From a virus, in IMG/VR virus record IMGVR_UViG_3300042868_009961, positions 1 to 54,895 of that record: a DNA stretch of 54,895 nt, one strand, 5' to 3'. Below, one piece after another: positions 9,042 through 11,006 of the stretch. The number at the start of each line of letters is the position of its first letter. Position 1 is the stretch's first letter. The position numbers and the translations under genes are program-made. A model generated the notes under the pieces. It was not told the origin of the DNA. It worked only from the letters and a program-made list of their open reading frames with translations, and made no database searches.

Positions 9042-9070
9042 TGTACAAATCGTGAATTTTAGTGTATAAT
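9042..9070 (+). promoter_or_regulatory. Early-type promoter for the MoxR/CobS ATPase
   Basis: TGTACA at 9042-9047, a 17-bp spacer, and TATAAT at 9065-9070. The leader of about 30 nt contains GTAAGCAA and CAACCACAACAT, shared with the promoter leader at 32332. Upstream 9005-9021 is AAAAGTGAAAAAAAGTG, also shared. Confidence 0.6.
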
Positions 9071-9106
9071 CATCCTGTAAGCAAAAGCAACCACAACATA
9101 CAAAAT

Positions 9107-10276
9107 ATGACAAACGAACAAAAAGCATCTGTCCTCAAAGAATTGTTTGCTAACAATGATCCAAAATCTGTCTCTAGCAAGACAATTTTTGACGCTGGTC
9201 GGACCCATTCCCTAAAGTTTAGGGAAATTGATGAAGTCTTTATCAAGCGTGCGCGAAAAGTTGGTCGTGGTAAATTTGACATCTCTGGACTGCTCGATAC
9301 AGAGTCAAGCATTCCAACCGCACCAGTCTCAGTGCAGGAAGTTCCTCAGCATGCAATGAAACTTGCTTGTGCAGTGGCTTCGGTCTCGAATGATGAAATC
9401 TTCATTCCTGAAAATGACCATACCTTTGTTAAATGGGGTGAATATAAAACCATTCAAAAAATTATTGAATCACGAATGTTTTTTCCGCTCTATATCTCTG
9501 GTATGTCAGGCAATGGCAAAACTATGATGGTTGAACAAGCTTGCGCCAAACTCAAACGCGAGTATATTCGAGTACAAATCTCCCCTGAGACTGATGAAGA
9601 TGATCTAATTGGTGGTTTTCGCTTGATAAATGGCGAGACTGTATTCCAAAAAGGTCCTGTGGTAAAAGCCATGGAGCGAGGTTGTATCTTGCTCATTGAT
9701 GAGCTTGATCGCGGTAGCAATAAGATTATGTGTCTTCAGGGGGTGCTTGAAGGTAAGCCAATTCTAATCAAAAAGGTTGGTGAAGTCGTCACCCCGGCCC
9801 AAGGGTTCAATGTGATTGCTACTGCAAACACCAAGGGCCGGGGGTCAGATGACGGCCGCTACAGCGCGGCCAACATTATTGATGAAGCCTTTATTGAACG
9901 ATTTGTGGCTACAATTGATCAACCATATCCTCCTTACAAGGTTGAACGCAACATCATCAGCAAACATATGGAGTATTTCAAAGTTGATGACAATGAATTT
10001 GTTGATAAGCTTGTTGCATGGAGCAGCGTTATTCGCAAAACATATGATGCAGAAGGGGTTGATGAACTCATCTCAACTCGTCGCTTGTGTCATATTGTCA
10101 AGGCTTATAGCATCTTCCACGATCGTTTGACCGCAATTGGAATGTGTATTGCTCGATTTGAAACTGAAACTCGTGAAGCATTTCTCGATCTTTACACCAA
10201 GATTGACAGCAACCAAATTCAGGCTGAAACAACCTCTGCAACTGAAACTCAAACACCAGAAGAACCACCATTTTAA
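9107..10276 (+). CDS. MoxR/CobS-type AAA+ ATPase
   Basis: The 389-aa protein has Walker A GMSGNGKT at 132-139, Walker B LLIDELD with D198-E199, a sensor I ATAN and an arginine finger region IDEAFIERF. CobS-like ATPases are common in environmental T4-like phages and usually pair with a vWA partner, encoded directly upstream here. The first 60 residues form a small domain (KTIFDAGRTHSLKFREI) that recurs in the AT-hook protein at 32615. I use ATG 9107; an in-frame ATG at 9062 lies in the promoter. A cobalamin function is not supported by context. Confidence 0.85.
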   Translation: MTNEQKASVLKELFANNDPKSVSSKTIFDAGRTHSLKFREIDEVFIKRARKVGRGKFDISGLLDTESSIPTAPVSVQEVPQHAMKLACAVASVSNDEIFIPENDHTFVKWGEYKTIQKIIESRMFFPLYISGMSGNGKTMMVEQACAKLKREYIRVQISPETDEDDLIGGFRLINGETVFQKGPVVKAMERGCILLIDELDRGSNKIMCLQGVLEGKPILIKKVGEVVTPAQGFNVIATANTKGRGSDDGRYSAANIIDEAFIERFVATIDQPYPPYKVERNIISKHMEYFKVDDNEFVDKLVAWSSVIRKTYDAEGVDELISTRRLCHIVKAYSIFHDRLTAIGMCIARFETETREAFLDLYTKIDSNQIQAETTSATETQTPEEPPF

Positions 10277-10280
10277 ACAC

Positions 10281-10322
10281 TTTAGCGGTTGGTCTACGCT
10301 AAACCATGAATCTATAGACCAA
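10281..10322 (+). promoter_or_regulatory. H-type RNA pseudoknot upstream of the winged-helix gene
   Basis: Stem 1 is 10281-10287 with 10297-10303 (TTTAGCG/CGCTAAA, seven pairs). Stem 2 is 10289-10296 with 10315-10322 (TTGGTCTA/TAGACCAA, eight pairs). Loop 1 is the single base 10288, there is no base between the stems, and the last loop is 10304-10314. All 15 pairs are Watson-Crick. A run of 37 A-rich, unstructured bases separates it from the start codon at 10360. The layout matches the gene 32 mRNA leader pseudoknot of T2/T4, which nucleates autogenous repression. It could alternatively protect the 3' end of the upstream mRNA. Confidence 0.65.
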
Positions 10323-10359
10323 AACTGAATAAACATAATTGAAACAGAAAACATATAAT

Positions 10360-10617
10360 ATGACTAAAATTGAAACAACCAAGTTGGCACGTCTCGTTAA
10401 GAACATGACTCAAAAGGAAGCTCTCTATGCTTTCCTTGAGCAAGGTCATGAATTCTCCGCTGCCGAAGCACGTAAGGCTGGTATTGCTGACCCAAGTCGT
10501 GTCATCAGCTCGCTTCGCAACGACCACGGTCTTGCAATCTACCTTAACCCACGCAAGACCCGTACTGGCGAGCGCATCAATCGCTATCGCCTTGGTACCC
10601 CACGTAAGAACGGCTAA
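10360..10617 (+). CDS. Small winged-helix DNA-binding protein
   Basis: The 85-aa basic protein has the pattern of a phage winged helix-turn-helix family: a helix LYAFLEQG, FSAAEARKAGIADPSRVISSLRN as the HTH, then a wing AIYLNPRKTRTGERINRYRLG. Its codons end in C or G more often than its neighbours (for example CGT, AAG, CTT, ACC), suggesting high expression. ATG 10360 fits the family; a TTG at 10339 is in frame but lies in the leader. A pseudoknot lies 37 nt upstream and a strong terminator directly downstream, so this looks like an individually controlled abundant DNA-binding protein. Confidence 0.8.
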   Translation: MTKIETTKLARLVKNMTQKEALYAFLEQGHEFSAAEARKAGIADPSRVISSLRNDHGLAIYLNPRKTRTGERINRYRLGTPRKNG

Positions 10618-10631
10618 TTGCTAAGTTAAAT

Positions 10632-10663
10632 ATGCGGCAACAGTGTAAAAGCTGTTGCCGCAT
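10632..10663 (+). terminator. Rho-independent-like terminator after the winged-helix gene
   Basis: A perfect 12-bp GC-rich stem (ATGCGGCAACAG, 10632-10643, with 10652-10663) and an 8-nt loop, followed by TTCTTCC. It ends only 10 nt before the next start codon, so that gene would depend on read-through. Confidence 0.75.
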
Positions 10664-10977: not shown

Positions 10978-11006
10978 TTTACACTCGCTCTTTTTTGATA
11001 TATAAT
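10978..11006 (+). promoter_or_regulatory. Early-type promoter for the sliding clamp
   Basis: TTTACA at 10978-10983, a 17-bp spacer, and TATAAT at 11001-11006. The predicted leader before ATG 11018 is about 5 nt, without a Shine-Dalgarno. Confidence 0.65.

Follow-up and report, generated by a model that had tools for sequence, protein, structure and literature searches.

The window, i.e. the whole 54,895-nucleotide stretch analysed here (IMG/VR virus record IMGVR_UViG_3300042868_009961, positions 1-54,895), contains a perfect H-type pseudoknot at 10281-10322, which ends 37 nt before the ATG at 10360 of an 85-codon open reading frame (ORF) for a small basic winged-helix protein. On the comparison of related phage sequences, the knot is almost certainly a real RNA element, and the best reading of it is a conserved cis-acting 5' RNA element of the winged-helix mRNA in a group of T4-like phages. 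The knot consists of 7 + 8 Watson-Crick pairs with loops of 1, 0 and 11 nt and has no inter-stem bases. The geometry and position likened to gene 32 in the sequence-only reading were thereby confirmed. The parts of the knot are given below; L numbers designate the sequences compared.

10281-10287, + strand: stem 1, 5' strand TTTAGCG, forming 7 Watson-Crick pairs with CGCTAAA
10288, + strand: loop 1, G (A in L019 and L340)
10289-10296, + strand: stem 2, 5' strand TTGGTCTA, 8 Watson-Crick pairs, covarying (TGAGTTC in L239, TGCTCCC in L345)
10297-10303, + strand: stem 1, 3' strand CGCTAAA
10304-10314, + strand: last loop (L3), 11 nt, variable in sequence, 8-14 nt among relatives
10315-10322, + strand: stem 2, 3' strand TAGACCAA, compensated (GAACTCA in L239, GGGAGCA in L345)

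Both strands of the window were scanned for knots with loops L1 of 1-2 nt, L2 of 0-1 nt and L3 of 4-20 nt, Watson-Crick pairs only, and just one 15-pair knot was found. Since 12 dinucleotide shuffles of the whole window also gave one such knot in total (about 0.08 expected per window), the window sequence on its own is suggestive of a real knot, not conclusive. Taken together, the conservation and the stem-2 covariation seen among the relatives exclude a chance origin.

The knot was detected shortly before the winged-helix gene in 39 of 39 related IMG/VR contigs with leader sequence. In twenty of these, which code for proteins closely related to the 85-aa one, the knot is at the same place without exception; the distant relatives that complete the 39 were found via stem-1 patterns and protein searches. 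The knots of L345 and L346 were assigned manually, as the scorer disallows the bulge of L345 and chose another pairing for L346. In the ten close relatives compared, 28-29 of 29 knot bases (the 23-nt hairpin part and six 3' stem-2 bases) were identical to those of the window. At fourfold-degenerate sites of the more distant close relatives, the identity was 22-30 of about 40 (about 55-75%) in the winged-helix gene and 43-51% in the neighbouring ATPase gene. The sequence of L3 varies among the close relatives, and the distance from knot to gene was 21-39 nt in all scored leaders.

Pattern searches with a loose stem 1 or stem 2 resulted mostly in chance matches, the only real additions beyond the known loci being L083/L201, L179, the L239 group and L327. 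The search of genome contigs gave one fragmentary, unconvincing match. The CobS neighbourhoods checked, which belong to T4-like cyanophages and pelagiphages (S-PM2, Mosig, S-CRM01 and XG4), lacked the winged-helix gene as well as the knot described here. Knot-scan matches in Mosig and XG4 were rejected as unrelated sequence, that of Mosig being a terminator-like hairpin. In S-PM2 (L353 2446-2892), the stretch of about 447 bases that separates CobS from gp45 has no annotated gene, although it holds small open frames in two frames.

The window and L340 share the stem-2 strands TTGGTCTA/TAGACCAA; L239 has TGAGTTC/GAACTCA, L238 has GAGTTC/GAACTC with an added T-G pair, L345 has TGCTCCC/GGGAGCA, and the L341-L350 group has TGGTCT/AGACCA. 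In RNA letters, the variants of the distant lineages are GGUCUA, GAGUUC and GCUCCC, each with the partner strand altered to match. The automatic MAFFT alignment misregisters stem 2, so the pairs were counted in a hand-made structural alignment, which leans towards the structure; in it, two-sided changes were found in stem-2 pairs 4-8, i.e. in 5 of the 8 pairs. When loops were tested against the leaders of other lineages, full-length stems formed within one stem-2 type. The loops of L239 and L238 made 7 pairs with each other and 3-5 with other leaders, and the L345 loop made 7 pairs with the L345 leader and none with the other six. The complementarity of stem 2 is lineage-specific. An equally long stem arose from the shuffled downstream leader 11, 87, 183 and 320 times per 20,000 for L345, L238, L239 and the window, respectively.

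Stem 1 was nearly invariant. One A-U to G-U change was observed, one end pair is lost in the L341 group, and an extra end pair is present in L238/239 (G-C) and, beside a bulge, in L345 (A-U). The predicted stem 1 is supported by conservation, not by compensation. The covariation check on both stems that accompanied the sequence-only reading was therefore answered in part: stem 2 is compensated, whereas the near-invariance of stem 1 means that it neither passes nor fails. The window has the full 8-pair stem 2, but the outermost pair is not a conserved one, L014, L016 and L017 having lost it. The knot of the L341 group is less tight due to three unpaired bases at the junction.

The assignment of the knot to a gene was decided by L340, the same locus as L327. 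In this sequence the ATPase gene is parted from the knot by a short ORF and by a promoter-like TTTACA-N17-TATAAT site whose second hexamer ends 9 nt before stem 1; on this arrangement, the knot goes with the winged-helix gene, not with the ATPase gene. The link to the winged-helix gene, proposed from the window, thus holds also where the ATPase gene is not adjacent. The alternative suggestion, protection of the ATPase mRNA end, is not supported as the conserved role, as the L340 knot follows another ORF and a promoter-like site of its own. The surroundings of the knot in the window are as follows.

9042-9070, + strand: promoter-like TGTACA-N17-TATAAT, upstream of the CobS-like AAA ATPase gene (consensus scan, 10/12)
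9107-10276, + strand: CobS-like AAA ATPase gene (Pfam AAA_5, E 1e-21; phrog_249, E 1e-109)
10323-10359, + strand: spacer, A-rich, G-poor, mostly unpaired, with no Shine-Dalgarno core (21-39 nt in relatives)
10360-10617, + strand: basic winged-helix gene, HTH_39-like, 85 aa (PF14090, E 0.0036; AlphaFold2 model)
10632-10663, + strand: terminator-like hairpin, 13 bp, after the winged-helix gene (an opposite-strand match was also given by the promoter/consensus scan)

The 85-aa protein matched PF14090 (HTH_39) with an E value of 0.0036, under the family cut-off. The similarity is weak in the window protein, and 14 of 18 relatives match the family. The AlphaFold2 model (pLDDT 90) has a winged-helix topology, and the protein has a pI of 10.5 and a charge of about +8.7. 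The fold search returned no PDB match below E 0.001, and no close relative with a solved structure was found. A relative of the gene was also observed in Stenotrophomonas phage DLP_6 (L247 2880-3000), another phage type, where the leader holds a simple hairpin TTGCGC...GCGCAA and a pseudoknot was not seen by eye.

The mean unpaired probability of the window spacer was 0.75. The spacer is A-rich, as had been described, but G-poor instead of carrying A/U repeats: the spacers (e.g. ATAACAAAACAAAACAACACA) have not kept the UUAAA/UAAA repeats known from the T4 operator, and a Shine-Dalgarno core was not found in the window spacer. The ATPase ORF as listed spans 9062-10276 and its stop lies 4 nt before the knot; ATG 9107 is the likelier start, judged from the position of the promoter. 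The site at 9042-9070 is promoter-like by its consensus match, and its function is predicted. As the consensus scan found no promoter-like site directly before the knot in the window and one before the ATPase gene, the window knot is probably intercistronic. Its transcript probably ends with the winged-helix gene, because a terminator-like hairpin closes this gene. A hairpin of 12-14 pairs follows the winged-helix stop codon in 18 of 18 sequences examined, with stem sequences unrelated between lineages. The predicted unit is composed of the knot, the spacer, the ORF and the terminator-like hairpin.

A promoter-like site of the same type as in L340 was also detected ahead of gp45 in the window (10978-11006). 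The motif TTTACA-N16/17-TATAAT, present at 10978-11006, in L340 (2392-2420) and in the gp32 leader of L248, looks like the early/middle promoter of the group. Some genes have instead TATAAATA just before the start (e.g. before 39997 and 42624), as in T4 late promoters. Few window genes have a Shine-Dalgarno core and A-rich leaders are common, perhaps a sign of a host that rarely uses this signal.

Autogenous control of the winged-helix mRNA by its basic product is the account favoured here, tentatively and at somewhat less than an even chance. This small winged-helix product would recognise the coaxial knot, alone or within a complex, with stem 1 as the sequence-constrained part of recognition. 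The protein would then spread from the knot over the single-stranded leader and keep ribosomes from starting, i.e. act as an autogenous translational repressor; this would resemble the T4 gene 32 operator in working without being a member of it. In favour of this account, the product is a basic winged helix and the leader knot stands always ahead of the same gene, a consistent link to the gene of a nucleic-acid-binding-type protein that is a feature of the autogenous class. In each of six records the stem-1 repeat was found at a single site, which is what a self-specific operator would show. The operators of gp32 and rpsO/S15 are likewise leader pseudoknots (PMC3014915, PMC535899).

Several points weigh against autogenous control. 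The knot does not sequester the spacer, and repression would need spreading or occlusion, both of which are postulated steps. Winged helices mostly bind duplex DNA, and binding of this one to the knot is likewise a postulate. Furthermore, an mRNA built for stability would be just as likely to have a knot at its 5' end and a hairpin at its 3' end.

The main rival idea is that the knot protects the 5' end of the winged-helix mRNA against 5'-dependent decay with no regulator bound. Such a role is compatible with autogenous control; as the explanation by itself it is unlikely, yet carries appreciable weight. The 5' end would come from a promoter just upstream in L340 and elsewhere from nuclease cleavage of the ATPase-winged-helix transcript. 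The L340 promoter-like site ends 9 nt before the knot, therefore the RNA should begin within a few nt of it, and a strong hairpin closes the 3' end as well. In the T4 gene 32 mRNA, the most stable of T4, RNase E cleaves at -71, a short way upstream of the knot (PMC3014915). However, any hairpin would suffice for protection, and the near-invariant sequence of stem 1 is left unexplained while the lineages freely replaced stem 2 and the terminator stem. Reading of the knot by another factor (gp32, a RegA-type repressor, a host ribosomal protein or a small ligand) is rather improbable. The general layout matches the gp32 operator and gp32 is encoded on the contigs of two relatives, but the gp32 leaders of these two lack a comparable knot and the T4 operator needs both the knot and the UAAA repeats (PMC535899), which the spacers have not conserved. 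The control by an unseen gp32 that had been suggested was accordingly left unsupported. The missing knot is weak evidence, not proof, since RB49 gene 32 also has none (PMC3014915). A riboswitch match in Rfam was not obtained even at E 10. Separately, the gp32 leader of L249 was seen to hold mainly a perfect hairpin, TTGTTTACA-TG-TGTAAACAA, over the -35 region of the promoter, about 50-75 nt before the ATG.

It is highly improbable that the inverted repeat TTTAGCG-N-CGCTAAA is a DNA operator bound as a duplex by the winged-helix protein, with the RNA knot incidental. The near-invariance of stem 1 and its place just downstream of the promoter in L340 would suit such a site. In contrast, the TTTAGC-GCTAAA spacing varies between 11 and 13 nt, a half-site is interrupted in L345, and the window has no promoter-like site directly ahead of the repeat. 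A DNA site does not predict the paired changes that maintain stem 2, its distant 3' strand included. A DNA regulon of the stem-1 repeat was rejected, there being just one site per record. The chance that the ATPase gene ends in a recoding signal, at which a stop followed by a pseudoknot would cause +1 frameshifting or readthrough, is negligible. The window knot begins 4 nt after UUU UAA, but the gap between stop and knot can be as short as 2 nt or as long as about 13 nt (L018), L340 has its ATPase stop far from the knot, and the stop lies in a sequence context that is not conserved (TTTTAA, TTCTAA, TTATAA). The variable distance and L340 refute frameshifting or readthrough as a general function.

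Compared with known systems, the knot is closest in layout to the leader pseudoknot of T4, T2 and RB69 gene 32, which is likewise of the H type, has short coaxial stems, lies about 40 nt upstream of the start codon and is separated from the AUG by a single-stranded stretch. In contrast to gene 32, the gene here encodes a winged helix, not a single-stranded DNA-binding protein, with no sequence relation seen; the leader lacks UUAAA/UAAA repeats and a Shine-Dalgarno sequence, and gene 32 sits elsewhere in the two relatives with knot-free gp32 leaders. The knot was not classed as a gp32 operator, two defining features of which were looked for and not found. E. coli rpsO (S15) likewise has a leader pseudoknot on the mRNA of a small basic nucleic-acid-binding protein under autogenous control. 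In S15, however, the knot and the ribosome-binding site overlap and the 30S subunit is trapped by the knot; the knot described here stops 21-39 nt short of the AUG. The ompA leader stem-loop, a 5'-end stabiliser made of simple hairpins, shares the position at or near the mRNA 5' end (L340) and differs in not being a knot. The preQ1-I and SAM-II riboswitches are small H-type pseudoknots and similar compact leader folds; unlike these, the present knot is without an Rfam match, is not directly followed by a metabolic gene and does not include the ribosome-binding site. With Rfam 15 families, no match above the gathering threshold was found in the window, and those up to E 10 were at chance level.

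The layout is known from gene 32; the gene, the sequence and the phage group are new. The knot may, still more tentatively, represent a second, independent phage leader-pseudoknot system of autogenous control, in which a tiny winged-helix protein of uncultured T4-like phages would read an RNA knot, not DNA. It offers an RNA family absent from Rfam 15, and the natural stem-2 variants are ready-made compensatory mutants that make the idea directly testable. The element is a candidate for further leader-pseudoknot control, on an unrelated gene.
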